DNA of 64,000 nt from Pararhizobium capsulatum DSM 1112 (GTDB lineage: Bacteria; Pseudomonadota; Alphaproteobacteria; Rhizobiales; Rhizobiaceae). Below the pieces are notes generated by a model. That model was not told the origin of the DNA, searched no databases, and saw only the letters and a list, made by a program, of their open reading frames with translations. This document shows, one piece after another, positions 2,101 through 61,560 of this stretch. Positions within the stretch are counted from its first letter, which is position 1. Every line of letters begins with the position of its first letter. The DNA is taken from positions 1 through 64,000 of the forward strand of contig NZ_JAUSVF010000004.1 in NCBI RefSeq assembly GCF_030814475.1. Direction: 5' to 3'. The position numbers and the translations under genes were made by a program.

Positions 2101-2643
2101 ATGCCGAAAGCCGACCCGAAATCTAATGAAAAGACCCCTCTCACTGCGCGGCAGGCTGCGTTTTGCCGTCTCTTGGCTGAGGGGCGATCCAACCGCGATG
2201 CCTACCTTCAGGCCGGGTATAAGACCACGCCAGAGGCGGCGGATGCCAACGCCGCGAGGCTGCTAGGGAATGATAGGGTTTCGGCCATGGTGAAGGCTTT
2301 GCAGGCGCAAGCCGCCGTGAAGGCCATGGTGACCCTCGACAGCCTTGCCCGGGAATTCGATGAGAGCAGGGCGCACGCGCTGCGCGTCGATCAGGTGGGC
2401 GCGGCGGTTCAGGCCACGGCGATGAAGGCAAAACTCTTCGGGTTCATGGTTGACCGTCAGCAGGTGCAGGTCGAGCATACTTTGCGAAAACCATCCGCCG
2501 ATGAGAACGCCCCAACAGAGATGAGCCTTCAGGATTGGCAGGCGAAGTATGGCGGCGGCGGTCCCGTCATGAACGGCATCGGCAGCGGCAAACTGATCGA
2601 GCACAAGCCCGGAACGCCTCCGAAGGAGTATGACCGGGGATGA
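2101..2643 (+). CDS. Phage terminase small subunit
   Basis: The 180-residue product has the Terminase_2-like layout: an N-terminal helix-turn-helix segment with the typical opening LTARQAAFCRLLAEG and the GYK motif near residue 40, then a helical oligomerisation region and a variable tail. Small terminase subunits bind the phage packaging site and recruit the large subunit. An upstream in-frame start at 2026 would add 25 Cys-rich residues that do not fit the family, so ATG 2101 is preferred although its ribosome site is weak. The stop overlaps the start of the large subunit by four bases, the usual coupled arrangement. No portal or capsid genes follow, so this is a prophage remnant. Confidence 0.85.
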   Translation: MPKADPKSNEKTPLTARQAAFCRLLAEGRSNRDAYLQAGYKTTPEAADANAARLLGNDRVSAMVKALQAQAAVKAMVTLDSLAREFDESRAHALRVDQVGAAVQATAMKAKLFGFMVDRQQVQVEHTLRKPSADENAPTEMSLQDWQAKYGGGGPVMNGIGSGKLIEHKPGTPPKEYDRG

Positions 2644-37920: not shown

Positions 37921-38678
37921 GACCGCTCCGTGAATTGTATCGGATTGGCGATACGCTTACACGTAAGCAGTGCTACAACACACCTGGCCAATGCAGGTCT
38001 TGTTATTCAAGGGTAACAGCGAACAACGACCCCTGCCGATAGGGCCGAAACGGCGAGTGCGCAACGGGCGTGAAGACAAATTTTGCCATTTTCCCGATCT
38101 CGGCGCAATGCATGCATTGTCGCTGCCCCCCCTCGGCCAGATAACCTGATCGCTTGAGATGTTTGTCGAAACGGGCACGTGATGCGACCAATCTTTTCCA
38201 TTTCTCCCGAGGAATGCACCCTTGGCGTCAAGCCAAAAACGGCGGCGACCACGTCGTGAGAAAGCGGAGAGCGTGTGGGCACGAATGACTGCGTTGGACA
38301 CCTCGTGAGAAACATTACGTTTAGAGCTAGCAGCATAAGTTCATTACAGAAGATGTCCATCTTTCGGTGATGCCGATACAGGCCCCGAGATGCGTAGGAT
38401 CGGTGGCTATCGTCAGCATAGTCTCCTGCTCACTGGGTCCCTTTGTTGGCCAAGCGGTCACGTCGGCGCGAAGATCCTTGCGTCCAATCGGTGTTTGGTG
38501 CGTCATTTGACGTATTGGTGTTTCCTTGCTTCTGCCGTAGAAGTTGAAATCGATGATATCCGCACTTTTCCGTAAATAAACAACGTGGCGGTGCTGGTTG
38601 CCGAAACGATCATTAACTTTTTGATATTCCGGACCGGGACGTGCCCAGAATATCATGCTGAGGCGGGACGATATTTCC
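37921..38678. other. Intergenic region before RTX gene
   Basis: About 750 bp between divergent antiporter and RTX genes. Frames up to 210 codons on the reverse strand (near 38327-38962) are shadows of the RTX reading frame or lack family features. A 62-codon reverse frame at 38003-38191 (MVASRARFDKHLKRSGYLAE at its start) has Cys-x-x-Cys but no ribosome site; not assigned. Confidence 0.4.
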
Positions 38679-41255
38679 ATGGCAACATACATCCTGACGA
38701 CCGGCGATGACATCCTCACTGGAACTGATGGCGATGATATATTTGACAGTATGTATGGCCCGTTCTTTGGCGGTGGAGATCCCGGCGGAATCGATAAGAT
38801 CGAAGGCGGGTTAGGCAATGATAACTTGCGCATTTCGGATCCTAATAACGGGGCGGACCATATCCCAGGTGGTACGGCTGATGGCGGTGATGGGCTTGAC
38901 AGTGTTGATGTCTGGGCCGTGTTCCAAACAAGACCGACCTTGGGAACGATAGTGTTCAACAATTTTGAAGTTCTCTCCGTCAGTATGTTTCGTTCATTAA
39001 CCGCGTCGATCGCTCAGTTATCGAGCTTCTCTTTGATAGATTTGGCTGGAGAACACTTCACGTTTTATCTCACCGATGCGGGCGGCACAGTCGATTTTTC
39101 GACGCGAATGAATACCTTTTCCCTAACCATCGACTGCTCTGCACTTACATCGGCCGCAACGATTACCTCGACAGCTGCTGCTGACACCATGATAGGTTCA
39201 AATTTTGAGGATTGGCTAAACGGCGGCGGCGGTGACGACACCTATGTCGCCAGCCAGGGTGACACGATCATCGAGTCTCTCAACGGTGGTACCGACTTGG
39301 TGAGGTCCGGTGCCACGCAGGCTCTGTCGGACAATGTTGAAAACCTGACTCTCACGGGCGTGGCGGCAATCAACGGTAAGGGGAACCTGCTGGCCAATAT
39401 CATTATCGGTAATGACGGAGCAAATGTGCTGGATGGTGCGGGCGGGGCGGATCGCTTTGAGGGTGGGCTTGGCAACGACACATATATCACTGATGGCGGC
39501 GACACGATCGTCGAGGCAGCGAACGCGGGGAGCGACACCATCCGCTCGAGCGTTGCCAGTACGCTTTCCGCTAATTTCGAGAACCTGACGCTGATCGGGA
39601 CCGCTGGCGTCATAGGCACCGGTAATGGGGTCGCCAATATATTGAACGGTTTGCTGAACACCGGCGCAAATGTGCTCTCCGGCCTCGACGGCGCGGACCT
39701 TTATATCGTCGGCGCGGGCGACGTCGCCACCGAGATCACCTCGGGTGAGGCCGGTGGCGCCGACACGGTGCAATCTGGCGTAACCTACGCGCTTGGCGAC
39801 AACATCGAGCATCTGAAACTGACGGGCACTGCCTCAATCAATGGCACCGGCAACTATTTCGACAACACGATCACCGGCAACGGCGGTTCGAACGTGCTTG
39901 ACGGTGTCACGGGAGCGGACAGACTAGTCGGCGGGCTCGGCAGCGACACCTATGTCACGGAAGGCGGCGACACGATTGTCGAGGCTGCCAATCAAGGCGC
40001 AGACACAGTGAAGTCAAGCGTCGATTATACGCTAGGCGCTAATATCGAAAATCTCTTGCTGACCGGCCTATCGGCACTTGGCGGCACAGGCAACTCGCTT
40101 GCCAACACCATCACGGGCAACAGCGCTGCGAATGCTCTGAACGGTGCAACCGGTATCGATCGTCTGGTGGGACGCAGTGGCAACGACACCTATATCACGG
40201 ATGGTGGTGATACCATCGTCGAGGTTGCCAATCAGGGCACAGACACAGTGAAGGCAAGCGTCGATTATAAGCTGGACGCCAATGTCGAAAATCTCTCGCT
40301 GACCGGGAGCGCTGCGATTGCCGGCACCGGCAACTCGCTTGCCAACACCATCACCGGCAACAGCGCGGCGAACATCCTGAACGGTGTCACCGGCATTGAC
40401 CGCCTAGTCGGCGGTAACGGCAACGACACCTACATAACTGAGAGCGGCGACACGATCGTCGAGGCTGCCAATCAGGGTATCGATTTGGTGCAGTCGAGCG
40501 GCGACCATACCTTGTCCAGCAATGTGGACAATCTGACTTTGATCGGTGCAAACGCGATCAACGGCACGGGCAACTCGCTTAACAATACCATCATCGGCAA
40601 CAGCGCGGCAAACGTGCTGAACGGCGGAACAGGCTTCGATCGTCTCTTTGGCAGCAACGGCAACGACACTTATATCATCGACGGTGGCGATGCGATCACT
40701 GAGGCCAGCAATCAAGGCACAGATACTGTCCGGTCGAGCGCAACCTATGTGCTCGGGATCAATATCGAGCATCTGACATTGACGGGAACATCAACGATCA
40801 ACGGCACCGGCAATTCGCTGGCTAACATCATCCGCGGCAATGCAGGCATCAATGTTCTCGAAGGGGGAAGCGGCGCCGACAAATTGGCTGGCGGCTTGGG
40901 TATTGATACACTGTTCGGAGGATCGGGTAACGATGCTTTCGTGTTCGATACCAGACCAACTGCCGCAACCAACCGCGATATCATCACCGACTTCTCCAAC
41001 ACGTCCACCAACAACGATGTGTTCCAGTTGGACAACGCTATCTTTACCAAGCTTGGGAGCGAGACGGAGGCGTTGAACGCAGCGTATTTCAAGCTGTCGA
41101 CGCAGGCGCAGGATGCCAATGATTATATCGTCTACAACAACGAAACCGGCGGATTGCTTTATGATGCCGACGGCAATGGGGGAGCCGCTGGCGTGCAATT
41201 CGCAATGCTTTTCAACAACGCGACACTGACTGCCGCAGATTTCGTTTTGATCTGA
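38679..41255 (+). CDS. Large RTX repeat protein
   Basis: 858 residues from ATG 38679 (GGCGGGACG 10-18 bp upstream; ATG 38655 would add eight residues). No Sec signal. After an N-terminal domain (1-185) come seven tandem units of about 81 residues, each with a calcium-binding GGxGNDTY element, GDTIVEAANQGxDTV, a strand ENLTLTGTAAINGTGNSLAN and NVLNGxTGxDRL. The C-terminal block (FVFDTRP...DIITDFSN...DYIVYNNETGGLLYDADGNG) matches that of the RTX protein at the window start and precedes the type I secretion signal. The protein is probably exported and rigidified by calcium; role may be adhesion, biofilm or enzymatic, but no catalytic domain is visible. Confidence 0.92.
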   Translation: MATYILTTGDDILTGTDGDDIFDSMYGPFFGGGDPGGIDKIEGGLGNDNLRISDPNNGADHIPGGTADGGDGLDSVDVWAVFQTRPTLGTIVFNNFEVLSVSMFRSLTASIAQLSSFSLIDLAGEHFTFYLTDAGGTVDFSTRMNTFSLTIDCSALTSAATITSTAAADTMIGSNFEDWLNGGGGDDTYVASQGDTIIESLNGGTDLVRSGATQALSDNVENLTLTGVAAINGKGNLLANIIIGNDGANVLDGAGGADRFEGGLGNDTYITDGGDTIVEAANAGSDTIRSSVASTLSANFENLTLIGTAGVIGTGNGVANILNGLLNTGANVLSGLDGADLYIVGAGDVATEITSGEAGGADTVQSGVTYALGDNIEHLKLTGTASINGTGNYFDNTITGNGGSNVLDGVTGADRLVGGLGSDTYVTEGGDTIVEAANQGADTVKSSVDYTLGANIENLLLTGLSALGGTGNSLANTITGNSAANALNGATGIDRLVGRSGNDTYITDGGDTIVEVANQGTDTVKASVDYKLDANVENLSLTGSAAIAGTGNSLANTITGNSAANILNGVTGIDRLVGGNGNDTYITESGDTIVEAANQGIDLVQSSGDHTLSSNVDNLTLIGANAINGTGNSLNNTIIGNSAANVLNGGTGFDRLFGSNGNDTYIIDGGDAITEASNQGTDTVRSSATYVLGINIEHLTLTGTSTINGTGNSLANIIRGNAGINVLEGGSGADKLAGGLGIDTLFGGSGNDAFVFDTRPTAATNRDIITDFSNTSTNNDVFQLDNAIFTKLGSETEALNAAYFKLSTQAQDANDYIVYNNETGGLLYDADGNGGAAGVQFAMLFNNATLTAADFVLI

Positions 41256-47881: not shown

Positions 47882-48910
47882 TCAAATAGCGTCTTCGCCC
47901 ACGCGAACGATAAGCTTCCCAAAGTTCCCTCCCTCCAAGAGGCCGATGAACGCTTCGGGAGCCCGCTCCAGGCCGGCGACGATGTCCTCCCGGTAGCGCA
48001 AGGCGCCAGAGGCGATCCACTCGCTCACTTCCTTGTAAAACTGCTCCCGCTGATGGACGAACTCGCGCTGGATGAAGCCGCGGATCAGCAGGCTCTTCGT
48101 CAGGACGGTGCGCATAACATCGGGCAACCGGTCCTGTTGCGCCGCTTGGCCGGGACGCGCATTATATTGGGCGATGAGGCCGCAGACGGGGATCCGTGCA
48201 AAAGGATTGAAAAGCGGAAAAACCGCGTCCCAGACCTTGCCGCCGACAGTCTCGAAATAGACGTCGATGCCCTGAGGGCAGGCCTTGGCGAGCCGCTCGT
48301 TAAGATCGGGGCTGCGGTGGTCTATGGCTGCGTCGAAGCCAAGTTCGTCTTGCAGGTAAGCGCACTTTTCCGGCCCGCCGGCTATACCGACGGCGCGGGC
48401 ACCCCTCAGCCGGGCGATCTGCCCGACGACCGAGCCGACCGCGCCGCTGGCCGCTGCGACGACGAGTGTTTCACCAGGCTTCGGCTGACCGATATTGGCA
48501 AGGCCCGCCCAGGCGGTGAACCCAGGCATGCCGAGCACGCCGAGCGCGGTCGTGACGGGCGCGACGGCTGGATCGAGCTTACGCAATTCATTTCCGTTTG
48601 AAAGCGCGTAGTTCTGCCATCCAGAATGGGACAGAACCACATCACCTTCTGCAAAAGCGGGGTTTCGGCTTTTTATAACCCGGGCGACAGTTCCGCCCTC
48701 CATAACCGCGCCTATCTCGACCGGCGCGGCATAGGATTTGGCGGCGCTCATGCGTCCGCGCATGTACGGATCGAGCGAAAGGTAGAGGATCTTGAGCAGG
48801 ACTTGACCTATGGCGGGTTCCGCGACGGGGCCAGTGTCGATGGTGAAGTCGGCGATCGTCGGAGCACCAGTCGGGCGTGATGCGAGCAATATTCGCTGGT
48901 TTCCGTTCAT
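47882..48910 (-). CDS. NADP-dependent oxidoreductase (MDR superfamily, CurA/LTB4DH-like)
   Basis: A 342-residue zinc-free medium-chain reductase of the prostaglandin reductase/YncB (CurA) group that reduces alkenals or enones with NADPH. Key blocks: YLSLDPYMRGRMSAAKSY, GMPGFTAWAGLANIGQPKPG, the nucleotide loop AAASGAVGSVVGQIA and FETVGGKVWDAV. AAGGAGCC precedes ATG 48910. It is alone in its transcription unit. Zinc-ligand cysteines are absent, as expected. Confidence 0.92.
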   Translation of the reverse strand: MNGNQRILLASRPTGAPTIADFTIDTGPVAEPAIGQVLLKILYLSLDPYMRGRMSAAKSYAAPVEIGAVMEGGTVARVIKSRNPAFAEGDVVLSHSGWQNYALSNGNELRKLDPAVAPVTTALGVLGMPGFTAWAGLANIGQPKPGETLVVAAASGAVGSVVGQIARLRGARAVGIAGGPEKCAYLQDELGFDAAIDHRSPDLNERLAKACPQGIDVYFETVGGKVWDAVFPLFNPFARIPVCGLIAQYNARPGQAAQQDRLPDVMRTVLTKSLLIRGFIQREFVHQREQFYKEVSEWIASGALRYREDIVAGLERAPEAFIGLLEGGNFGKLIVRVGEDAI

Positions 48911-49491
48911 GATTTGTGGCTCCTTGAGCGAGTGGAGGATCAATCGCGCCGGGGCCATCGTAACCAAGACAAGATCGCGCGCGATCCGGACATAAAAAGG
49001 GCCCCTGCATCTGATCTTCGCAAGGACCCTAATGCCGGAGCGTTCGACTTCTACCGGCGGCCGAATTTATCCATATGGGCTCGCCTCGCGTCAATGCTTG
49101 GCTCCGACAGGAGTGCCCCCGCTGCGTCAGCGGTCAAAACACCAAGATCACAGGCAACAGCCACAATCAATTCTGCGACTGAACACGGGTGTCATAGGGT
49201 TGCGGATGGGTCACGTGGAAACTATTCTGAAGTCGCGGCGGCGAACCCGCCGATCTCGCAACCTCCGGCGCGCCTCAGCGCACCGAGCAGTTCCGAGTAG
49301 AGTGCCCAAGGCGTCAAAGAGAGAGCGTCGCTCGACATCGGAAGCCTGCTGCAATGGCCGTTCTGCGTGCGTCACTGGGCGCCTCTGCGGGCGTGCATCT
49401 ATGATTATGACGGATGGGAAGACGATAGGGGCTTTTGGTTGATACGGCGCCGGCCGCTGAACAGTTGCCCAAAATCTGTTGCGCGGGACGG
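48911..49491. other. Gap, no gene assigned
   Basis: About 580 bp upstream of the oxidoreductase gene. A 169-codon reverse frame at 49211-49720 mostly overlaps the real small gene at 49492 in another frame and lacks coding character. Nothing recognised. Confidence 0.4.
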
Positions 49492-50476: not shown

Positions 50477-50498
50477 TTGTACATATATGTATAGACAA
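50477..50498. promoter_or_regulatory. Inverted repeat, likely GntR/HutC-type operator
   Basis: TTGTACATATATGTATAGACAA has TTGT/ACAA ends and a perfect TACATATATGTA core. HutC-subfamily GntR repressors commonly recognise T-TGTxTAxACA-A-like sites, and the regulator encoded at 57856 is of this subfamily. The site is 64 bp before the first gene of the operon. Confidence 0.5.
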
Positions 50499-50561: not shown

Positions 50562-51335
50562 ATGAATGTACCGGCACTCTTCGATCTGACCGGGCGAAAG
50601 GCACTTGTAACAGGTGCCAGCCGCGGTCTCGGGCAGGCGATCGCCCAGGCGCTCGCATCCGCCGGGGCGGATGTCGCGATTACTGCGCGCGACGTTAAGG
50701 GCTTGGAAGAAAGCCGAACGTGCATCGACAACGCGGGCAGACAGGCCCTTGCCTATGCGCTAGATGTTCGGGATGTCGATGCCTGCTCTTCCGTCATCGA
50801 CGCCGCGTCGCATGCGTTGAACGGACTGGACATCCTGATCAACAATGCCGGTTATGAAGAAATCCGGCCCTCCCTCGATGTCGACGAGGCGTTGTGGGAC
50901 CGGATCGTATCAATCAATCTGAAGGGTGCGTTCTTCTGCGCGCAGGCCGCGGCGCGCAACATGGTCGCGCTCGGCACTGGCGGCTCCATTGTAAATCTCT
51001 GCTCGCTGACCTCCTATGTCGGTGTTCCGACCGCGGTTCCCTACGGCTCTTCGAAAGCCGGCCTCATGGGCATGACGCATGCGCTTGCCGCAGAATGGGC
51101 GCAGCATGGCATTCGCGTCAACGCCGTAGCTCCCGGCTATTTCCGCACGGCGATGACGGATGTTTTTTACCAGGACGAAGCATGGCAACAGGCGATGCTG
51201 GCAAAGATTCCGCAACGGCGCTTCGGCGCCATGGAGGACATGGCGGGCGCAGTCGTCTTCCTTTCGAGCGATGCGTCCCGTTATGTCACGGGGCATTGCA
51301 TACCGGTGGATGGCGGCTACCTCGCCTCGATCTGA
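50562..51335 (+). CDS. SDR dehydrogenase, first gene of catabolic operon
   Basis: 257 residues, classical SDR: TGASRGLG near residue 18, NNAG at about 90, catalytic Ser in NLCSLTSYVG, YGSSK with Tyr and Lys, and the usual end VDGGYLASI. ATG 50562 follows AGGGCCTG. It opens the operon of transport and dehydrogenase genes and in position corresponds to a secondary-alcohol oxidoreductase acting on the imported polyol (compare the HpsO-type enzyme of sulfopropanediol degradation, from memory). Actual substrate not deducible. Confidence 0.9.
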   Translation: MNVPALFDLTGRKALVTGASRGLGQAIAQALASAGADVAITARDVKGLEESRTCIDNAGRQALAYALDVRDVDACSSVIDAASHALNGLDILINNAGYEEIRPSLDVDEALWDRIVSINLKGAFFCAQAAARNMVALGTGGSIVNLCSLTSYVGVPTAVPYGSSKAGLMGMTHALAAEWAQHGIRVNAVAPGYFRTAMTDVFYQDEAWQQAMLAKIPQRRFGAMEDMAGAVVFLSSDASRYVTGHCIPVDGGYLASI

Positions 51336-51373
51336 ACGTTTTACATGCGGCGTTGTCGCCGCGCAAGGAAAGC

Positions 51374-52426
51374 ATGATGCAGGTTGCACTTAGGGGATCG
51401 TCGATCAAGGCAAAACCGGAGGGGGTCGCAATTGCGGTATCCGTCAAGGCCGTGAACATGGTCTATGACGGCGTCCATGCGGTGCGTTCGGCGTCTTTCG
51501 ATCTCGAAACGGGAAAGTTTCTTACGATCCTCGGCCCCTCCGGATCCGGCAAGACGACACTGCTGCGATTGATCGCGGGCTTCCAGCGGCCGACCAGCGG
51601 CGAGATTTTCATCAACGGCGCCGCCGTCAGCGCCGTGCCGCCGCATCGGCGGTCGATCGGCATGGTGTTCCAGAAGCTGGCCCTTTTCCCCCATATGACC
51701 GCCGCAGAGAACGTCGCCTTTCCATTGAAGATGCGGCGCAGCGATGCGCGTGACATTCCCGCCCGGGTCGAGCGCTATCTCGACATGGTGCGTCTTGGCG
51801 GCTACGGCACCCGCCGGTTGCACGAACTGTCGGGTGGCCAGCAGCAGCGCGTGGCGATTGCCCGCGCGCTGGTGTTCGAGCCCGACCTGCTCTTGCTCGA
51901 TGAACCACTCGCAGCCCTCGACCGGAAACTGCGTGAGGAAATGCAACTCGAGTTCCGCCGCATCCAGCGCGAACTCGGCGTGACGACGATCAATGTGACC
52001 CACGATCAGCGGGAAGCCCTCGTCGTGTCCGACGAGATCATTGTTATGGACGGCGGGGAAATCCAGCAGAAGGCGAGGCCGGCCGAGACCTATCGAAGCC
52101 CGTCCAACGCCTTCGTCGCCAATTTCATCGGCGTGACAAACTTCCTCGATGCGCCGGACGGCGAACGCCGGGCAATCCGCGCGGAAAAGATCCGCATCGC
52201 GCCGACCCGCGACGGATTGGACGGTGCCGATACGATCGTCGAGGGGGTCGTGGCGGATGCCATCTTCGAGGGCGAGAGGGTCGTCTACGAGGTTCGGGTA
52301 GCATCGCTAGGCGATGCGCTGCTGCGGGTTTTTGATCATGATCCGTCTGCACACAGCCAGCTGGAAGCAGGGTCCGCTGTTCATCTCGGCTGGACCGCCG
52401 GAGACGTCCTGCACTTCAAGCCGTAA
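51374..52426 (+). CDS. ABC importer ATPase, PotA type
   Basis: 350 residues. Walker A GPSGSGKT, Q-loop VFQKLALFPHMTA, signature LSGGQQQRVAIARA, Walker B LLLLDEPLAALD and the switch His in NVTHDQREALV are all present; a TOBE-like domain covers the last ~90 residues. It powers uptake by the two permeases downstream, in the class that imports polyamines, phosphonates or other small charged compounds. ATG 51374 (next ATG 51377) follows AAGGAAAG. The gene begins 38 bp after the SDR stop. Confidence 0.95.
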   Translation: MMQVALRGSSIKAKPEGVAIAVSVKAVNMVYDGVHAVRSASFDLETGKFLTILGPSGSGKTTLLRLIAGFQRPTSGEIFINGAAVSAVPPHRRSIGMVFQKLALFPHMTAAENVAFPLKMRRSDARDIPARVERYLDMVRLGGYGTRRLHELSGGQQQRVAIARALVFEPDLLLLDEPLAALDRKLREEMQLEFRRIQRELGVTTINVTHDQREALVVSDEIIVMDGGEIQQKARPAETYRSPSNAFVANFIGVTNFLDAPDGERRAIRAEKIRIAPTRDGLDGADTIVEGVVADAIFEGERVVYEVRVASLGDALLRVFDHDPSAHSQLEAGSAVHLGWTAGDVLHFKP

Positions 52427-52461
52427 GCCGGAGAAACCGGTCAAACCAGAGGAGAATGAAC

Positions 52462-53577
52462 ATGAGCGAAGATAAACTGACATCCTTGACTATCCGCCGC
52501 CGCCGGTTCCTACAGGGCGCGGCGACGATCGGCGGTGCTGCGGGCCTGTCGTCACTGGGCCTGTCCAGCGCCTTAGCGCAGGAGCCTGAAAAGCCGAAGG
52601 AACTGATCGTTCGCGCCTGGGGCGGCAGCTGGGTCGACGCGCTGAAGGCCGGCGTCTCCGATAGCTTCACCGCAAAGACCGGCATTGCTGTCCGCCACGA
52701 TCTGACCGAGGACAACGAAATCCAGCCGAAGGTCTGGGCGGCCGTAGCTCAGGGCCGCGCGCCACCGATCCACATCAACTGGGACACGACCACCAACGCC
52801 ACGAAATCGGCGCTGCGCGGCGTAACCGAGGATCTGTCGGATCTTCCCAACCTCAAGAACACCACCGATCTTGCAAAGCCGGTCGGTCTCGACGGCTATC
52901 CAATCGTCAACACCTACGGTTATGTTTACGTACTTGCCTACCGCCCGGAAGCGTTTCCGAACGGTGCGCCGAAGTCCTGGAAGGACCTGCTCGATCCCAA
53001 GTACAAGGGCCGCATCGCACTCTACAATGACGGCATCGGCTTCCACTTCCCCGCACAGGTCGCCGGCGGCGGCAAGCTGGAGGACATTCCGGCCAACATG
53101 CAGCCGGCCTGGGATTTCGTCGCCAAGATGAAGGAGCAGCAGCCGTTGCTCGGCGAAGATCCGGATTTCACCACGTGGTTCCAGAAGGGCGAGATCGACG
53201 CCGCCTGCACGATTTCCACCAATGCGCGCGAGGCCAAGAAAAACGGCATCGACATCAAGTGGATCGTGCCGGAGGAAGGCGCCAAGTTTGATACCGACGG
53301 CCTCTGGATCCCCAAGGGCCTGCCGGCCAACGAGCTTTATTGGGCGAAGGAATATATCAATCACTCGTTGACGGTCGAAGCCCAGCAGATCTGGCTCGAC
53401 GGCCTCGGTCTGCCGGGCGTAGTGCCGGGCGTAAAGCCGCCGGCCGATCTCGTCGATGATCCCTCCTATCCGACCACCGAAGATGCCTTCAAGCACCTGA
53501 TCCGCATCTCCTCCAAGGTGCAGGTAGAAAACGAGAGCGAGTGGTTCTCGAAGTTCAAGGCGATCATGCAGGGTTGA
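52462..53577 (+). CDS. ABC importer periplasmic substrate-binding protein, PotD type
   Basis: 371 residues. A twin-arginine-like signal (IRRRRFLQGAATIGGAAGL, cleavage near ALAQ) leads to an extracellular solute-binding domain: LIVRAWGGSWVDALKAGVSD at the start, NTYGYVYVLAYRPEAF and SWKDLLDPKYKGRIALYND in the middle. GGAG at 52451-52454 fits ATG 52462 better than ATG 52456. It captures the operon substrate in the periplasm. A RIME-like hairpin follows. Confidence 0.93.
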   Translation: MSEDKLTSLTIRRRRFLQGAATIGGAAGLSSLGLSSALAQEPEKPKELIVRAWGGSWVDALKAGVSDSFTAKTGIAVRHDLTEDNEIQPKVWAAVAQGRAPPIHINWDTTTNATKSALRGVTEDLSDLPNLKNTTDLAKPVGLDGYPIVNTYGYVYVLAYRPEAFPNGAPKSWKDLLDPKYKGRIALYNDGIGFHFPAQVAGGGKLEDIPANMQPAWDFVAKMKEQQPLLGEDPDFTTWFQKGEIDAACTISTNAREAKKNGIDIKWIVPEEGAKFDTDGLWIPKGLPANELYWAKEYINHSLTVEAQQIWLDGLGLPGVVPGVKPPADLVDDPSYPTTEDAFKHLIRISSKVQVENESEWFSKFKAIMQG

Positions 53578-53589
53578 CCTCTCGGATGT

Positions 53590-53680
53590 CCCACACCCCA
53601 GCCCTTTCCCCCCAGGGGAGAGGGAACGACAAAGGTTGCCACTGGGTTCTTCTCCCCGTTTGCGGGAGAAGGTGGCCAAA
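53590..53680. repeat. RIME-like intergenic hairpin
   Basis: Two nested hairpins, around CCCTTTCCCCCCAGGGGAGAGGG and TTCTCCCCGTTTGCGGGAGAA, in the 158-bp gap between the binding-protein and permease genes. The sequence style is that of the dispersed palindromic elements of rhizobial genomes (RIME and relatives). In this location it could stabilise the upstream mRNA and raise binding-protein yield relative to permeases. Confidence 0.65.
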
Positions 53681-53735
53681 AGGCTAGATAAGAGGCGCTC
53701 CGGCGCACTGACACTGCCACCAATCAAGGACTGAC

Positions 53736-54680
53736 ATGCGAACGGCGAAATCGGCCTATCCCCTGACCTGGCGCATCATGGATGCTCTGGAAGCTTTCGC
53801 GGCTTTAGTCTGGCCTGCGCGCTTCGGCCGCGCGATACCGTGGCTGATGCTGGCGCCCGCCCTGCTGCTCGTCGGCCTGCTGGTGCTCGGTCTCTGGCAG
53901 ATCGGCGATGCCAGCCTGCGGACACTGGATACGACCACCTTTCTGATGTCGGAGACCTATACGCTTTCAAATTACCAGCGTGCCTTTACCGAAAGCCTGT
54001 TTGCAGTCGTTGCCTGGCGCAGCCTTGTGGGGTCGCTGATCGTCACGGCCGTGACGCTTGTTCTAGCCTTTCCCTATGCCTACGTGATGGTCCAAACATC
54101 CTCGCCGATAACGCGCAAGCTGTTGTTGATCGCGCTCTTTCTGCCCTTCTTCATCGGGCAGGTGGTGCGGGCCTATGGCTGGCTGGTCATTCTGGGCAAT
54201 CAGGGAATGGTCAACGAGGCGCTCGGCCTTGTCGGCATCGCGCCGATCAGGCTTCTTTACAATTATTGGGCCGTGCTCTTCGGCCTTGTCCAATATATGC
54301 TGCCGTTCGCTGTCCTGATGCTCGCACCGGCGCTGACCGCCATTCCGGAAGAGCTGGAAGCTGCGGCTGGCTCTCTCGGCGCCGACTGGGTGCGCACCTT
54401 CCGCCATGTCGTCCTGCCACTCGCAAGGCCGGGCCTGGTGGGTGCGGGTCTCGTCGTGCTCACCCTGTCGCTCACCGATTTCGCCATGCCCGCCATCCTC
54501 GGCGGCGGAAGCCAGGATTTCATCGCCAACGCTATCTACGACCAGTTCTTCCGCACATCGGACCAGGGACTGGGCTCGACGCTGGCGCTGTTGCTGGTCG
54601 CCGTCGGCTCGCTCCTTGTCGGTCTGGTCTTCACCCTGTTCGGCGCTGGCACTCTGGCCATGGGGAGGGGGCGCCGATGA
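53736..54680 (+). CDS. ABC importer permease, PotB type
   Basis: 314 residues with six to seven membrane helices and the cytoplasmic EAA loop EELEAAAGSLGADWVRTFRH that docks on the ATPase. It is longer at the N-terminus (~35 residues before the first helix) than average. The stop overlaps the ATG of the second permease by four bases. Confidence 0.94.
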   Translation: MRTAKSAYPLTWRIMDALEAFAALVWPARFGRAIPWLMLAPALLLVGLLVLGLWQIGDASLRTLDTTTFLMSETYTLSNYQRAFTESLFAVVAWRSLVGSLIVTAVTLVLAFPYAYVMVQTSSPITRKLLLIALFLPFFIGQVVRAYGWLVILGNQGMVNEALGLVGIAPIRLLYNYWAVLFGLVQYMLPFAVLMLAPALTAIPEELEAAAGSLGADWVRTFRHVVLPLARPGLVGAGLVVLTLSLTDFAMPAILGGGSQDFIANAIYDQFFRTSDQGLGSTLALLLVAVGSLLVGLVFTLFGAGTLAMGRGRR

Positions 54681-55477
54681 CTGTCCCGTTGAGCAAAACC
54701 ATCGTTCTTTGGATTTTCGTCGTCGCGGTGCTCGTTCTTCTGTCGGCACCGACGATCGTGATCCTCGGCGCTTCCTTCACGTCCGGAAATATCATCACCT
54801 TTCCGCCAGAGGGCTTTTCGCTGAAATGGTACGAGAAAATCGCCACCTCGCGCGATCTGTGGGACGCCTTCCTGCGTTCGCTCTATGTCTCGGCAATCTG
54901 CACCATCGTTGCGATCCCGGTGGGAACGCTGGCCGGTATCGTACTTGCCAAATATGCGATCCGCTTTGAAAAATCGGTCCAGCTCTATCTGTTGCTGCCC
55001 TTCACCATCCCGCTCATCGGTTCCGGCATCGGACTGATGCTGATCTTCGGCGAGGCACGGTTGCTGGGCCAGCTCTGGCCCGTCGGGCTGGCCTGCTGCG
55101 TCATCAACCTGCCGTTCATGATCTGGGCCGTGACGGCAAGCGCCTCCAGCCTTGATCCGGATCTTGAACTCGCCGCCGCCAGCTGCGGCGCGCCACCGCT
55201 CTCCACCTTCCTGCATGTGACCCTGCCCGCTGTCATGCCCGGAGTTATCAGCGGGTCGCTGCTGATGTTCATTCTGGCGCTGAATGAATTTCTGGTGAGC
55301 CTGCTTTTGACGGATGCACGCATCGTGACGCTGCCGGTCCAGATCTACAATTCCATCCGCTCCATCATCACGCCCGATCTGGCGGCGATCTCGGTGGTCT
55401 TCATCGCCTGCGCGGCGCTGGCGATCGTTCTGCTCGATCGCCTCGTCGGTCTTGAAATCTTCCTCAGATCCAAATGA
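54677..55477 (+). CDS. ABC importer permease, PotC type
   Basis: 266 residues, six membrane helices, EAA loop DPDLELAAASCGAPPLSTFL (the usual Gly-Ala is here SCGA). It forms the heterodimeric channel with the upstream permease, and translational overlap ensures equal amounts. The short gap to the next gene indicates one transcript. Confidence 0.94.
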   Translation: MTVPLSKTIVLWIFVVAVLVLLSAPTIVILGASFTSGNIITFPPEGFSLKWYEKIATSRDLWDAFLRSLYVSAICTIVAIPVGTLAGIVLAKYAIRFEKSVQLYLLLPFTIPLIGSGIGLMLIFGEARLLGQLWPVGLACCVINLPFMIWAVTASASSLDPDLELAAASCGAPPLSTFLHVTLPAVMPGVISGSLLMFILALNEFLVSLLLTDARIVTLPVQIYNSIRSIITPDLAAISVVFIACAALAIVLLDRLVGLEIFLRSK

Positions 55478-55520
55478 TGCAGAAGCCGGCGCGATGCACT
55501 GGCGAAACGGGAAAACAGCC

Positions 55521-56837
55521 ATGTCAGACGTCTCCTTTCACGATCTCTCCACATTGGATGCGCCAAGCCGCGCAGCGCTCCTGCGCCGGTCGGAGACCGA
55601 CCTCTCCGGTTTCATGGAAACGGTGAAGCCGATCATCGAGGCGGTTCGCGTCGAGGGTGACGCCGCCCTGGTGCGTTACGCGCGCGAACTGGACAAGGCG
55701 GATTTGGACGAGAGCCGCCTGAAGGCAACGGAAGTCGAATTCAACGCAGCTTTCGATCTGGTTGAGGACGATGTCATCGAGGCCATCCGATTCGGTATCG
55801 ACAACATCCGCCGCTTCCACGAAGTGCAGAAACCGGAACCGATGTGGCTAAAGGAAATGCGCCCCGGCGCCTATGCTGGTGACCGCTTCACGCCGATCCG
55901 CTCCGTTGCGCTCTACGTTCCCCGCGGCAAGGGCGCATTCCCCTCCGTGACCATGATGACGGCCGTGCCCGCCGTGGTCGCCGGCGTGCCGGAGATTGCT
56001 ATCGTCACACCGCCGGCGCCAGATGGATCCGTGGATGCCGCGACACTGGTCGCAGCCCGCCTCGCCGGCGTCTCCAACGTTTACAAAGTCGGCGGCGCGC
56101 AGGCCGTTGCAGCTGTGGCCTACGGCACGCAGACCGTCAGGCCGGCGCTGAAGATCGTCGGTCCGGGAAGTCCCTTCGTGGTGGCGGCCAAGCGGCTTTT
56201 GTCCGGCACCATCGATCCCGGTCTGCCCGCTGGCCCGTCCGAGGCGGTCATCTTTGCCGACGAAACGGTGAAGGGCGGCCTGGCGGCGCTAGACCTTCTG
56301 GTCGAAGCCGAGCACGGTCCGGATTCTTCCGCCTACCTCGTCACGCACAGCCGCCGCGTGGCCGAAGAGGCCCTCGCCGCCCTGCCCGATCACTGGGCCC
56401 GCATGACCGAACAACGCGTCGCCTTCTCGAAAGCGGTGCTCACCGGCCGCTGCGGTGGCATCGTGCTCACCTCCTCGCTTGAAGAAAGCTATCGCTTCGT
56501 CAACGACTATGCGCCGGAACATCTCGAAATCCTGTCGACCGATGCCTTCGCCCATCTCGGCCATATTACGGAAGCTGCGGAAATCCTCATGGGGCCGCAT
56601 ACGCCGGTCTCGATCGGCAATTTCGGTCTCGGGCCTAATGCAGTTCTGCCAACAAGTCGCTGGGCGCGCACCTACGGACCGCTGTCGGTGACTGATTTTG
56701 TCAAGCGCTCGTCGATCGGCTACGTCACGGCGTCGGCCTATCCGGAATTTGCAAGACATGCCCGCACCCTGGCCCGCTACGAGGGCTTCTCCTCACACGA
56801 GCACGCGGTCTCCGATGTTCGCAAGGAATACCTGTGA
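55521..56837 (+). CDS. Histidinol-dehydrogenase homologue acting on another alcohol (HpsN-like)
   Basis: 438 residues, full-length HisD fold: YVPRGKGAFPSVTMMTAVPA, KVGGAQAVAAVAYGTQTV, GPGSPFVVAAKRLL and AGPSEAVIFAD. The acid-base pair E333-H334 (NDYAPEHLEI) and H265 and H426 are kept. But the position of zinc ligand Gln259 of E. coli HisD is Glu262, zinc ligand Asp360 is Asn367, and the substrate-contacting His367 is Ala374 (GNFGLGPNAVLP). These changes argue against histidinol as substrate. HpsN, the sulfopropanediol 3-dehydrogenase, is the characterised non-histidine member of this family. ATG 55521 starts 43 bp after the permease; the stop overlaps the next start. Confidence 0.85.
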   Translation: MSDVSFHDLSTLDAPSRAALLRRSETDLSGFMETVKPIIEAVRVEGDAALVRYARELDKADLDESRLKATEVEFNAAFDLVEDDVIEAIRFGIDNIRRFHEVQKPEPMWLKEMRPGAYAGDRFTPIRSVALYVPRGKGAFPSVTMMTAVPAVVAGVPEIAIVTPPAPDGSVDAATLVAARLAGVSNVYKVGGAQAVAAVAYGTQTVRPALKIVGPGSPFVVAAKRLLSGTIDPGLPAGPSEAVIFADETVKGGLAALDLLVEAEHGPDSSAYLVTHSRRVAEEALAALPDHWARMTEQRVAFSKAVLTGRCGGIVLTSSLEESYRFVNDYAPEHLEILSTDAFAHLGHITEAAEILMGPHTPVSIGNFGLGPNAVLPTSRWARTYGPLSVTDFVKRSSIGYVTASAYPEFARHARTLARYEGFSSHEHAVSDVRKEYL

Positions 56838-57868
56838 CGATGAAGGCGGCAAGACTCTATGCAGTGGGCGATATCCGGGTGGAGGACATTGACATCCCCG
56901 GCCCGCTTGCCCCCGGCTGGGTCCGGGTTGCTGTTGCCGCAGCAGGCATCTGCGGCTCTGACCTTCACAATTTTCGCACCGGGCAGTGGATCACGCGATC
57001 GCCGTCCGTAGCAGGGCACGAGTTCGCTGGTGTGGTAATGGAGGTCGGAGCGGGCGTTTCGCAATTTACTGAGGGCGATACCGTCGTTGCCGATTCCCGG
57101 TTCTGGTGCGGCGAATGCCCCGCCTGCCGAAGCGGCCGACACAACATCTGCCATCATCTCGGCTTCGTCGGAGAAATCTGCGACGGTGGCTTTGCAGAGC
57201 AGTCGGCATTGCCGGCACGGCTGCTGGTCAGGCACGATCCGGCGTTGGATCCGGCGATTGCGGCCATGGCCGAGCCGCTGGCTGTCGCCCTGCATGCGGT
57301 GCGACGGCAGGCGATTCCGTCCGGCGAGCCCGTTCTCGTTGTCGGCTGCGGTCCGATCGGCGGACTTGCGGCTCTTCTGCTGTCGCACCTGCATGATGGC
57401 CCTGTCCTCGTCTGCGACCGCAACGCGGATCGCGCAAGGCTGGTTGCGCGGGTGACCGGTGCCTCAAACGTCACCCTCGACACGGAATCCTTTCGCGACG
57501 CGCTTTCCGGACGGGTGCTTCGCTACGCCTTAGACGCGACGGGCAATATTGAGGTCCTGATGCGGGTTATCGCACATCTTGGCGGCGGCGGTTCACTGAC
57601 ACTGGTCGGCATCTCGCATGGTCGCATCGATCTCGACCCGAATATGCTCGTCGAGCGCGAAATCGCGCTCATCGGCTGCCATGCCTTTTCCAGCGAGTTG
57701 CCGGAAGCCGTCGCCATGCTGCCCGGACTGGCGGACGCTCTTGCCAAACTGATCGACCGGGAAATAGCAATCGAGGCCTTGCCGCAAACCTATGAACGAC
57801 TCCTTGCCGGCAACGCGACGCGTCTCAAGACGATTGTCCGATTTGCCCGAAACGAGTGCCGCCCTTGA
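56834..57868 (+). CDS. Zinc-dependent alcohol dehydrogenase (MDR)
   Basis: 344 residues. Catalytic zinc site C-G-S-D in AGICGSDLHNFRTG and GHEFAG, structural zinc lobe CGECPACRSGRHNIC, and the Rossmann motif VVGCGPIGGLAALL. A GTG at 56834 overlaps the HisD-like stop, with AAGGAA upstream; ATG 56840 is the alternative. It probably oxidises or reduces the second carbon of the operon substrate, together with the SDR (an epimerising pair in sulfopropanediol degraders). Overlap with the regulator frame follows. Confidence 0.92.
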   Translation: MTMKAARLYAVGDIRVEDIDIPGPLAPGWVRVAVAAAGICGSDLHNFRTGQWITRSPSVAGHEFAGVVMEVGAGVSQFTEGDTVVADSRFWCGECPACRSGRHNICHHLGFVGEICDGGFAEQSALPARLLVRHDPALDPAIAAMAEPLAVALHAVRRQAIPSGEPVLVVGCGPIGGLAALLLSHLHDGPVLVCDRNADRARLVARVTGASNVTLDTESFRDALSGRVLRYALDATGNIEVLMRVIAHLGGGGSLTLVGISHGRIDLDPNMLVEREIALIGCHAFSSELPEAVAMLPGLADALAKLIDREIAIEALPQTYERLLAGNATRLKTIVRFARNECRP

Positions 57869-58656
57869 CCCAATCCTCCGACGGAAAGCCGGCCGCGATG
57901 ACTACCCTGTCCGACCATGCGAGCCCCCTTTACGAGAAGGTCAAGGACTACGTCCTCACGCATATCGGCAGCGGCGAATGGGACAGGAACCGCAAGCTGC
58001 CGTCCGAGCACGATCTGGTGGCGACGCTCGGCGTTTCGCGCATGACCGTTCACAGAGCGCTGCGGGAATTGACGTCGGAAGGTTATCTCCTGCGTATCCA
58101 GGGGGTGGGAACATTCGTCGCGCCGCCTAAGCCGCAATCGACCCTGATCGAGGTCGCCAACATTGCCACCGAGATAAGTGGGCGCGGCGGACAACATCGC
58201 GCCGAGGTCATTCTCATCGAAACCATACGGCCGGAAATCGAACTTTTGGCAGCCTTCGAGGCCGGTGGACAGATCCGCGTTGCCCATTCGATCGTCGTCC
58301 ATTTCGACAACGGCATTCCTGTCCAGGTCGAAGAGCGCTTCGTCAACTCGGAGCTCGTGCCGGACTACGAGCGGCAGGACTTCGTCGCTATGACGACCTA
58401 CGACTATCTGCAGCGCTCGACGCCGATGACCGAAGTGGAACACGTCATTTCCGCCATTGGAGCGGATGCCGAAACCGCACGGATGCTGAAGCTGGAAGAA
58501 GGGGCTCCCTGCCTGCTTCTTCACCGACGGACCTGGTCCGGTCCAAATGTCGCGACGGTCAACCGGCTTACCTATGCCGGCGACCGCTATTCCCTCGGCA
58601 GCCGTTATGCGCCGTCATCGCTGAAATACCGTCAAAAACTGGAAGATGAAAGATGA
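57856..58656 (+). CDS. GntR-family regulator, HutC subfamily
   Basis: A winged HTH at about 20-90 (LYEKVKDYVLTHIGSGEW, LPSEHDLVATLGVSRMTVHR) is followed by a UTRA effector domain with the typical FDNGIPVQVEERFVN and CLLLHRRTWS. A GTG at 57856 overlaps the upstream gene; ATG 57898 would still keep the HTH and is as likely. Being inside the operon it probably represses it, with the TTGT...ACAA repeat at 50477 as candidate operator, and is relieved by a pathway intermediate. Confidence 0.92.
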   Translation: MPPLTQSSDGKPAAMTTLSDHASPLYEKVKDYVLTHIGSGEWDRNRKLPSEHDLVATLGVSRMTVHRALRELTSEGYLLRIQGVGTFVAPPKPQSTLIEVANIATEISGRGGQHRAEVILIETIRPEIELLAAFEAGGQIRVAHSIVVHFDNGIPVQVEERFVNSELVPDYERQDFVAMTTYDYLQRSTPMTEVEHVISAIGADAETARMLKLEEGAPCLLLHRRTWSGPNVATVNRLTYAGDRYSLGSRYAPSSLKYRQKLEDER

Positions 58657-59939
58657 CTGAAAACAACAGCAGGACATCGGACATTCGCCGGATGGCACGA
58701 ACTGACGAGCCGACGGCGACGGCACTTCTCGGCAGCCTGCTTCTGGATCTGTTTTCGCTGAAGGCGGAGTCGATCCGCATCAACCGCGATCAGTACAGCC
58801 TGAATTCGTTGAACGGCTTTTTTGACGCTGATGGCCAGTCATTTTTCTTCAAGTTTCATCAGGAGGACGGTGAAGAGGCGATGTCCGGCGAATATTATCG
58901 CGCCGACATCCTTGCCCGCGCCGGGCTTCCGGTGGATCAGCCGGTCTATATGTCGGTTCTGCCCGGAGAACAGATACTCATCTACCGTCGGCGCAGCGAT
59001 CCGCGCTTTTCCGATGTGCTGCGGGCGCTGGATCTCAACCCCGATCCGGTGGTGGAATCGAAGGCCGTTGCTGCCGAGAAGGAGCTTTCCGCCAGGGTGC
59101 TTTCCGTATACCTGGAAAGCCTGCATGTCGTAACGCCGCAGGAGGTGGCGGCCGAGCCGATCCATAGACTGTTCTATGACCGGCTGGTCGATCCGCAATC
59201 CGGCGCCATTCCCGGCGGACGCTACAAAACCTTTTACGTTGGCGAGCGGTTTCTTTTCCCGGGCGTCGATCTCGATTGGGAGGCTTTCTCTAAGGCCCGG
59301 ATCGTGATCAATGGCCGGCGATATCGTCACAGCTTCGGCGAACTCTTCTACCTTGCGAGTATTCGGTTGAGGCCCGACCGGCTTGCCGACGCCGGTGGCG
59401 TCGTCGCGCACGGCGATGCGCACAATGCGAATGTCTGGTACACGGAGACGGATGACCGGGCGCAGCTGACCTATTTCGATCCGGCTTTTGCTGGGCAGAA
59501 CGTTCCGACCCTTCTGGCTGAGGTTAAGACGACCTTCCATAATGTTTTCGCGCACCCGCTGTGGCTCTATGATGCCGCGGAAGCTGAGAAACGATATTCG
59601 GGACTTGCCCGCTACGAGGCCGGAACGCTTTTCTTGGAAACCGATTGGGATTTGAGCGCGGTGCGACGCAAATTATTGGATGTGAAGGCTGACAATTTGT
59701 GGCGGCCTCTTCTAAGCGCGTTGGATGCGCGTGGCATGCTTCCTGCGGATTGGCGTCGCGTCATTCGCCTTGCGCATTTTCTGTGCCCGACCCTTGTCAT
59801 GAACATCAGGGCCGGGGCGTCGACTCACAATCCGACCTCTTCGCTCATCGCCATCGCCATCGCCGTGATGGTGGGTAGCGAACCGGAGACTGAAGACGAC
59901 TTGATGTCACGGTTTCTGGATCGCATTGATCCGGCCTGA
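58653..59939 (+). CDS. Aminoglycoside-phosphotransferase-fold kinase of unknown substrate
   Basis: 428 residues; the ATG overlaps the regulator stop by four bases. Kinase elements are in order: Lys67 in FFFKFHQ, Glu79/80 on the following helix (SGEYYRAD), the Brenner motif HGDAHNAN at 253-260 and the metal-binding Asp276 in YFDPAFAG. All catalytic residues look intact. The protein is longer than antibiotic kinases and closer to metabolite kinases of this fold. Its place as the last gene of a transport-oxidation operon suggests it phosphorylates a pathway intermediate, or the imported substrate, though resistance or regulation remain possible. Confidence 0.82.
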   Translation: MTENNSRTSDIRRMARTDEPTATALLGSLLLDLFSLKAESIRINRDQYSLNSLNGFFDADGQSFFFKFHQEDGEEAMSGEYYRADILARAGLPVDQPVYMSVLPGEQILIYRRRSDPRFSDVLRALDLNPDPVVESKAVAAEKELSARVLSVYLESLHVVTPQEVAAEPIHRLFYDRLVDPQSGAIPGGRYKTFYVGERFLFPGVDLDWEAFSKARIVINGRRYRHSFGELFYLASIRLRPDRLADAGGVVAHGDAHNANVWYTETDDRAQLTYFDPAFAGQNVPTLLAEVKTTFHNVFAHPLWLYDAAEAEKRYSGLARYEAGTLFLETDWDLSAVRRKLLDVKADNLWRPLLSALDARGMLPADWRRVIRLAHFLCPTLVMNIRAGASTHNPTSSLIAIAIAVMVGSEPETEDDLMSRFLDRIDPA

Positions 59940-60231: not shown

Positions 60232-60663
60232 TTAGTCACTGCGTGCGGTTGCCCTATGACCTTGTCCGCGCGCCAATTCGACGAAGCGGCGTTTGATCTC
60301 ATCGAACAGTGCCGGCGGTAGGGGGCCATAGTAGCCGGTCTCGGTATCGACAGGCCTTACATCTGGCCCCGGCCAGACAAATCGATTGCTCTCTGTCAAA
60401 ACAATCCAGGATCGCTCGTCGTCCAGTCCGAGACGACGTTTCGTCGCTGGTGGAATCTCGATGGCATCTCCTGGATCAGAGGGTGGCGAATGCGTGATGG
60501 GTAGAACCCGCACGGCAGGGGTTCCATCCTCCAAGGTTGCGACGATAGCCAACACGAGCGCCGGGCGATCCTTGTCACCCTCTTCACGACCTTCGAGATG
60601 CTGCCAATGCCAGAGATACGAATATCGGAAAACCCATCCGACCTTCGGTTCAGTCGGCAGCAT
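60232..60663 (-). CDS. PemK/MazF-like toxin
   Basis: 143 residues: FRYSYLWHWQHLEGREEGDK then DRPALVLAIVATLEDGTPAV and RVLPITHSPPSDPGDAIEIP, with SWIVLTESNRFVWPGPDVRP near the end. The W...E-G-xKxRPALV start and the central IEIP strand fit the PemK/MazF superfamily of ribonuclease toxins as found in this subgroup. It overlaps the antitoxin gene by 14 bp, antitoxin first, which is the usual order. Confidence 0.75.
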   Translation of the reverse strand: MLPTEPKVGWVFRYSYLWHWQHLEGREEGDKDRPALVLAIVATLEDGTPAVRVLPITHSPPSDPGDAIEIPPATKRRLGLDDERSWIVLTESNRFVWPGPDVRPVDTETGYYGPLPPALFDEIKRRFVELARGQGHRATARSD

Positions 60664-60928
60664 GCTTGTCGTTCAGCAGTTCGACGTTGAGATGGTCGAG
60701 ACCTGGCTCCATAGTCGACGCTTCGATGCCGGCAAGGTCCTCGTCGCCAAGTGTTGTTGTCAGGTCAACGCGACGATCGCGTTTCGCCAGACGCAGATAA
60801 TCCTCATAGGCGATCAAAACAGTGCGCGGTCGGCCATTCTTGGTGATAATTACCGGTTCACGTACGGCCGCATCCTGGTAGGCTCCGAAATTCTTGGAAA
60901 CCGCCGCCGCGGTTACAGTTGATGCCAT
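60650..60928 (-). CDS. Phd/YefM-type antitoxin
   Basis: 92 residues from ATG 60928 behind AAGGAGC. TVTAAAVSKNFGAYQDAAVR then EPVIITKNGRPRTVLIAYED is the characteristic Phd/YefM DNA-binding half, followed by a tail (LDHLNVELLNDK) that would wrap the toxin. It should repress its own promoter and neutralise the toxin. Partner of the PemK/MazF-like gene. Confidence 0.8.
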   Translation of the reverse strand: MASTVTAAAVSKNFGAYQDAAVREPVIITKNGRPRTVLIAYEDYLRLAKRDRRVDLTTTLGDEDLAGIEASTMEPGLDHLNVELLNDKHAAD

Positions 60929-61560
60929 GGTCAAGCTCCTTTGTTCCGTAATATACGGGATTTCCGTGACATCTGCAAACACGGGTTGGACCAGGCGAAC
61001 ACGAAGTTTCCAGGCGTGTTAAAAAATCGACACGATCGCTGCCGTGCCGCCGATGGAGCGCGAGACGCTGGCCGAATTCCTGCCCCCTCGAAAACGACTT
61101 CATAGCGTAAGTGCTTTCGGCCTGAGCGGACGACAGCCTGGTCGATGTCCGCCACTAGGCCCTGCTGATGGCCTTTGTCTTTGGCTGCCGACGGCGCTAG
61201 GAGATGGCAAAATCGTCGTACAGAGGACTTGATTGTCGGGGAACCGGTTCACGCCGATCCCGTTGGGCAACCCCCTCCCCTGCCGTGGCACCCCATCCAT
61301 CTCGGCTGCACCAGGACCACCAGTGGCGACAACCTAAACGAGAATGTCGTCGTGATCGCCCTGCCGGTATTCCCTCTGAAACTTTGAACGAGGCCGGCAT
61401 CGAGAATGAGCCTATCGTCCCGAGCATCGATCAATGGGGAATTGTGGAACGACTTGCAGGGCCGCCGCAGTGTCTATCAATCTGATCCTGAATTCCCCCG
61501 TTGCCAGGCAGATCTCGCCCCATCGCATACTCTACCACGGCCTGCGGTCGAGCTATCTGA
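60929..61560. other. Decayed DNA, no gene assigned
   Basis: Short frames on both strands mix fragments with no continuous family match. No terminal inverted repeats were noticed. Appears to be degraded accessory sequence upstream of the toxin-antitoxin pair. Confidence 0.4.

Follow-up and report, generated by a model that had tools for sequence, protein, structure and literature searches.

A conserved rhizobial operon with a third-clade HisD-like dehydrogenase and an orphan kinase is linked to histidine utilization

Which compound is handled by an operon that joins an importer and three dehydrogenases to a kinase without a family match? Such an operon, nine genes all on the + strand, occupies positions 50562-59939 of the window, the 64,000-nucleotide stretch of Pararhizobium capsulatum DSM 1112 analysed here (contig NZ_JAUSVF010000004.1). 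The initial annotation had described one co-directional operon with repeated 4-bp overlaps and a HutC-type regulator, likened its dehydrogenases to the HpsO/HpsP/HpsN set of dihydroxypropanesulfonate (DHPS) catabolism, and proposed another polyol, a sulfonate or a phosphorylated compound as substrate. Our analysis ties the operon to histidine utilization (hut) rather than to sulfonates. We consider it probable that it is a satellite of that pathway, through which an imidazole-bearing alcohol would be imported, oxidised into histidine and degraded by the Hut enzymes. Gene content and families were assigned by profile matches scored against the model cut-offs of Pfam and NCBIfam, as follows.

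50488..50497, + strand: HutC-type operator TGTATAGACA, 74 bp before the start of the first gene, sole copy in the window
50562..51335, + strand: short-chain dehydrogenase/reductase (SDR) family dehydrogenase (PF13561), KduD-like but under the KduD cut-off
51374..52426, + strand: PotA-like ATPase of an ATP-binding cassette (ABC) importer (TIGR01187, 341.5 bits vs a cut-off of 355.6)
52456..53577, + strand: periplasmic binding protein of the polyamine/opine class (PF13416)
53736..54680, + strand: first ABC permease, PotB-like by profile matches
54677..55477, + strand: second ABC permease, PotC-like by profile matches
55521..56837, + strand: HisD-family dehydrogenase, placed in a third clade by sequence (TIGR00069, 427 bits vs a cut-off of 243.8)
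56834..57868, + strand: zinc alcohol dehydrogenase (ADH), threonine-dehydrogenase-like (PF08240/PF00107; Tdh 159.0 bits, under the cut-off)
57898..58656, + strand: GntR/UTRA repressor of the HutC family (TIGR02018, 278.8 bits vs a cut-off of 220)
58653..59939, + strand: predicted APH-fold small-molecule kinase of an uncharacterised family (predicted model, fold matches and invariant residues)

The layout, the gene content and the regulator family thus agree with the initial description, and the 4-bp overlaps are present at three junctions (permease/permease, HisD/ADH and regulator/kinase). The regulator might start earlier, at a GTG at 57856; its relatives begin at the later Met.

Do these genes form a conserved unit? 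Relatives of the kinase turned up at 238 loci in a scan that took one genome per species, and the 80 best loci were analysed further. The record titles of these loci name genera that we take to belong to Hyphomicrobiales, or isolates of Rhizobiales or Rhizobiaceae. When gene presence was counted at no less than 50% identity, the HisD-like gene was found at 78 of these loci, the ADH gene at 74, the SDR gene at 73, the regulator at 53 and the ABC ATPase with the binding protein at 40, and the exact nine-gene order of the window recurred in 22. Gene order and co-conservation were computed directly, and this degree of operon conservation exceeds chance. The two loci without the HisD-like gene were a 5.9-kb contig (L066) and a real exception of 21 kb (L035). 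Among 297 genomes of the order, all 19 with the kinase also encoded the HisD-like protein, and in 18 of them the two genes lay on one contig, about 2 kb apart or less. The neighbourhood survey set beforehand for this pair therefore came out in favour of co-conservation, at the level of loci and of genomes. The HisD-like gene itself was present in 51 of the 297 genomes; because 32 of the 51 were without the kinase, the latter is a frequent but dispensable part of the operon. In a phylum-level sample the kinase occurred in 7 of 398 genomes, and in PLSDB 107 records carried the kinase and 105 a HisD-like gene of at least 60% identity.

The operon also varies in composition. Kinase-less versions retain the SDR, importer, HisD-like, ADH and regulator genes; a 2-hydroxyacid oxidase accompanies four of them (L125, L126, L128 and L150) and is missing from L127 and L129. 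Between lineages the regulator and the importer are exchanged, and rearranged versions were found on one Klebsiella and one Paroceanicella plasmid, the former with an added GhrA-like 2-hydroxyacid dehydrogenase. Accessory genes at the 80 kinase loci encode a hisC-type transaminase (36 loci), a flavin mononucleotide (FMN) 2-hydroxyacid oxidase (15 loci) and an aromatic transaminase (5 loci).

In an alignment of 123 HisD-like rows, which include near-identical strains and overlapping loci, every row showed PRGKG[A/S]F, Glu at the column of E. coli Gln259 and Asn at that of Asp360, and the columns of His262, Glu326-His327 and His419 were retained. The canonical zinc ligands Gln259 and Asp360 and the G-S-A-P-L motif were accordingly absent from all rows. 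Columns were placed via alignments, with E. coli HisD numbers (259, 262, 326-327, 360, 367 and 419) that we presume to be correct. The window protein has G-K-G-A-F and Ala at column 367, where the 123 rows carry Ala (104), His (18) or Cys (1). The SDR gene shared the locus with 1 of the 18 His367 rows vs 95 of the other 105, the ten exceptions among the latter including short contigs. A 32-row tree, which drew long-branch warnings, separated HpsN and two relatives (100/100), two canonical HisD proteins and a clade of 26 with the window protein (100/99). These active-site differences were computed directly and, judged by sequence, the protein belongs to a third HisD clade that is neither HpsN nor canonical HisD. 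Two other HisD relatives (L097, Cupriavidus sp. EM10; L101, R. johnstonii 3841) are 68% alike, share 42-45% identity with HpsN and have GKFPM/GKYPL-type motifs, and possibly represent another functional group.

Could the three dehydrogenases nevertheless serve a variant of DHPS catabolism, interconverting DHPS and oxidising it to sulfolactate? The enzyme types are the same, the clustering with an alpha-hydroxy acid oxidase is similar to that in the Leisingera DHPS cluster, and the window SDR is 41% identical to the Leisingera SDR in the HpsO position. An SsuA/TauA-like importer, which would fit a sulfonate too, lies 3' of the kinase in 32 of the 80 kinase loci. As set out in excerpts of PMC11382572, the criteria are G-R-Y-A/S-H for HpsN and G-S-A-P-L for HisD, and an Ala mutant of the HpsN zinc ligand Asp352 was inactive. 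The HpsN motif with its sulfonate-recognising His126 is absent, all 123 rows carrying G-K-G-A/S-F, and Asn replaces the essential Asp352. The window protein, moreover, lies in a clade apart from HpsN. Identity to HpsN is 34%; for HpsP it is 38%, over 159 residues. Sulfolyase searches of the genome, with CuyA outside their scope, gave a best Xsc score of 293.1 vs 676.4 and a single galactarate-dehydratase-like match (371.1 vs 730.85) to PF04295, which we take to be the Pfam family holding SuyB. DHPS catabolism was rejected on the motif, the zinc-ligand column, the tree and the lack of Xsc or a clear SuyB match in the genome, and we regard it as very improbable. The initial annotation was therefore right that the operon departs from the DHPS pathway as described, and the genome search that it had suggested for the SuyB family produced only this lone match. 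Its comparison with HpsO, HpsP and HpsN stands for the enzyme types and fails for the relation to HpsN, and its sulfonate or plain polyol substrate is disfavoured by the missing HpsN motif and by an operator and a neighbourhood that point to histidine utilization. Its third suggestion, a phosphorylated compound, may still hold, the kinase being present though dispensable.

How does histidine enter the picture? In the 6.48-Mb genome, TGTATAGACA occurs twice, in the promoter of the window operon and in the gap between the divergent hutF and hutI-hutH-hutG-hutU; hutC lies beyond hutF at the same hut locus. The decamer is one position off the Pseudomonas HutC consensus TGTA-N2-TACA as quoted in part of PMC12977541. 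Across the 80 kinase loci and the window we counted 77 copies. Of these, 73 stood upstream, at no more than 350 bp, of SDR (46 loci), hisC (19), ABC ATPase (17), hutI (7), HisD-like (7) and hutH (1). The mean for 200 shuffled decamers was 0.5 copies. In a wider set of 99 SDR upstream regions, again with near-identical strains and overlapping loci, 52 contained TGTATAGACA; a sigma-54-like pattern appeared in 2 of the 99 and was unconvincing.

The hut genes themselves are also found next to the operon. At 60% identity or more, they adjoin it in nine of the 80 kinase loci (six Pleomorphomonas, Oryzibacter, Metarhizobium and one Rhizobiales isolate), a count from which weaker hut-type matches (L044, L116 and L160) were left out. 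They likewise adjoin the HisD-like gene in the kinase-less loci L124, L141, L142 and L145, and in the last three this gene forms the end of the hut cluster. Within the 51 genomes encoding the HisD-like protein, hutU lay no more than 15 kb from its gene in 11, from five families, where 0.37 would be expected for 5-Mb genomes with relatedness ignored; three partial hutU matches that scored below the cut-off are not counted. Operator occurrence and hut proximity are direct computations, as is the presence of hutU in 49 of these 51 genomes vs 102 of the 246 without the HisD-like gene (p 2e-14, relatedness ignored). Genome G000 encodes four histidine-ammonia-lyase-family and three hutU-family proteins (C2:847202, C2:853993, C5:87060 and C1:3205104), some of which may act on other ring compounds.

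A counterpart of the operon exists in S. meliloti 1021, where pSymA shows the window gene order with a divergent hisC at about 210.3-221.1 kb. Excerpts of PMC12542648 identify hisD2 as SMa0398, with a site at 214937-214957, which adjoins the HisD-like gene that we located; other SMa tags were matched to operon genes by name and order. According to the portions of PMC2912261 consulted, the genes lowered in a tolC mutant include hisC3 (SMa0387, -11.4), SMa0391 (-15.6), SMa0392 (-8.3/-23.5), SMa0394 (-10.5), SMa0396 (-10.1), hisD2 (-10.6) and SMa0402 (GntR, -8.4), together with ntrB, ntrC, glnK and hutU/G/H. This joint fall of operon, ntr and hut genes is consistent with nitrogen control, within a broad gene set. 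SMa0392 is also listed as an AbcR1/2 target in an excerpt of PMC8844928.

For the importer, neither PotA (341.5 vs 355.6) nor PotD (28.5 vs 582) reached the cut-off of its equivalog model, and polyamine import was rejected on these scores; the polyamine label of SMa0392 traces, in the part of PMC3484140 available, to a 'possibly involved' statement. The model of the binding protein is of moderate quality (predicted local distance difference test, pLDDT, 70.7) and its Foldseek matches include PotD, MotA, AgtB, gamma-aminobutyric acid (GABA) and iron binders alike, so that the model leaves ligand specificity undecided. Might the operon then supply nitrogen from another polyol or amino alcohol, with a borrowed HutC-family repressor and with hut proximity reflecting shared nitrogen control only? 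The breadth of the binding protein class, the exchange of regulator and importer between lineages, and the many unrelated transporters within the nitrogen-type co-expression excerpted for S. meliloti would suit this explanation. However, the operator is common to the hut promoter of the same genome and to hisC and hutI promoters elsewhere, and in three loci a hut cluster has the HisD-like gene as its last member; we think such a substrate rather unlikely.

For the kinase, a predicted model (pLDDT 90.6) whose fold matches are APH-fold kinases indicates an APH-fold small-molecule kinase, and HGDAHNAN and D276 are invariant among 53 relatives. Single-sequence searches with the window kinase gave no match in Pfam (PF01636 included), NCBIfam or PDB sequences. 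PF01636 was matched by 23 of the 53 relatives at E-values up to 1 (best 3.9e-5), and a kinase profile found four weak, implausible matches only among PDB sequences. In L160, a gene of the histidine-ammonia-lyase family (38%) neighbours the kinase, and the distance from the kinase to the HisD-like gene is roughly 171 kb.

What reactions would connect these parts? We infer the substrate, in both its ring and its chain, as well as each reaction, the kinase step and repressor binding. The ABC importer would take up a histidinol-type imidazole-bearing alcohol. SDR and zinc ADH families act on secondary alcohols, and here they may attack the secondary hydroxyl, either in two stereoisomers or to form the ketone. 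The third-clade HisD enzyme would convert the CH2OH end into a carboxylate in two nicotinamide adenine dinucleotide (NAD)-dependent steps. From an amino alcohol this would give histidine directly; otherwise histidine would arise with the help of an accessory transaminase of the hisC or aromatic type, in some cases together with the FMN 2-hydroxyacid oxidase, before degradation by the Hut pathway. A CH2OH-to-COOH enzyme, two further dehydrogenases and accessory transaminases or oxidases fit a route from alcohol through 2-hydroxy acid and 2-oxo acid to an amino acid, which the hut operator makes most simply histidine. A HutC-family repressor, presumably bound at the operator at 50488, would couple expression to hut. 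The kinase may phosphorylate either the alcohol itself or some intermediate, and would do so in only some lineages.

A more specific version, which we hold only tentatively, starts from imidazolyl-propanediol, imidazole acetol or histidinol and reaches histidine through a re-wired duplicate of the terminal part of histidine biosynthesis. The SDR and ADH would yield the ketone and the third-clade HisD would finish the route; the HisC paralogue could receive imidazole-acetol phosphate formed by the kinase. Kinase-less lineages would proceed via imidazole lactate and imidazole pyruvate with a 2-hydroxyacid oxidase and a transaminase. The HisD and HisC paralogues could instead duplicate the final steps by which histidine is made or salvaged, in line with the TIGR00069 score over its cut-off and a hisC paralogue scoring over that of PRK05166 (577 vs 540). 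Yet a canonical HisD, 40% identical to the window protein, is encoded elsewhere in the genome, the operon has an importer under a hut-type operator, and the zinc-site residues differ, which makes an anabolic role improbable.

Several observations, besides the SsuA/TauA-like importer, weigh against a satellite of histidine utilization. A reversed control pattern of TGTATAGACA likewise occurs twice in the genome, so the copy number is not unusual, though the two places are; among the 200 shuffled decamers, one reached 10 copies, each of them upstream. The exact decamer precedes the SDR in only 46 of 81 loci, and where the window-type regulator is present (62 loci) it was found in 36 and lacking in 26; it was also found in 16 of the 37 loci without this regulator. 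The hut genes are near the operon in a minority of genomes, and none lies in the window. The altered zinc-site residues make plain histidinol uncertain as substrate. Finally, HisD-like genes at 55-60% identity (L139, L152 and L154) adjoin a PuuE-like gene, joined in L139 by one for a thiamine-diphosphate enzyme (PRK08199); the clade may therefore be functionally mixed.

Around and within the operon, further features were recorded. The 158-bp gap between the binding protein and first permease genes (53578-53735) contains a palindromic CCTTCTCCCGCAAACGGGGAGAAG-like stretch, to us reminiscent of rhizobial intergenic repeats. Ahead of the operon lies a gene of the CurA-type NADPH-dependent curcumin reductase family (47882-48967, - strand; NF058644, 537.4 vs 440), and just behind it, at 60232-60982 on the - strand, a Phd-family antitoxin gene (TIGR01552, 29.7 vs 20.8) overlaps a 143-aa gene without a family match, a possible toxin partner. 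Judged by eye, the window also holds a terminase-like reading frame (2640-4058, + strand) and a protein with calcium-binding-repeat-like glycine/aspartate stretches (38655-41255, + strand).

The operon is real and conserved. No described pathway for it was found in the open-licence literature, and within the limits of those papers it counts as undescribed. It combines familiar kinds of enzymes in a new way, with a third HisD clade and an orphan kinase, and its link to histidine utilization is new here, the initial annotation having named the HutC-type regulator alone. If the proposal is true, functions would follow for a clade labelled histidinol dehydrogenase and a kinase family labelled hypothetical protein in annotated records, and for the operon on S. 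meliloti pSymA and on an R. leguminosarum plasmid. The Hut regulon would gain a branch, suggesting that, in soil or root zones, alcohols akin to intermediates of histidine serve as nutrients. The claim can be tested directly, because S. meliloti 1021 is amenable to genetics.

Compared with known systems, the importer has an ATPase, two permeases and a binding protein of the same class as the PotABCD polyamine and agropine/mannopine importers, but scores under the Pot equivalog cut-offs. The kinase is 8-9% identical to the APH-fold 5-methylthioribose kinase and PsiK, and differs from such small-molecule kinases in forming its own family, tied to the HisD-like gene and without a Pfam match. Like the HpsN/HpsO/HpsP pathway of Cupriavidus pinatubonensis and Roseobacteraceae, the operon clusters HisD-family, SDR and zinc ADH genes with an importer and a regulator, and both systems know an accessory 2-hydroxyacid oxidase; in contrast, it lacks the HpsN motif and Asp ligand, falls in another clade, has a HutC-type operator, hut neighbours and a kinase, and comes from a genome in which Xsc and SuyB-family searches gave no sulfolyase. 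Canonical HisD shares family, fold and the His262, Glu326-His327 and His419 columns with the window enzyme, whereas its Gln259, Asp360 and GSAPL are replaced by Glu, Asn and GKG[A/S]F in an enzyme whose operon includes an importer. The operon encodes an importer, three dehydrogenases and a kinase but no Hut enzymes, which sets it apart from the Hut regulon with HutC; it resembles that regulon in its HutC-family repressor and the operator decamer of its genome's hut promoter, and in several genera it adjoins hut.

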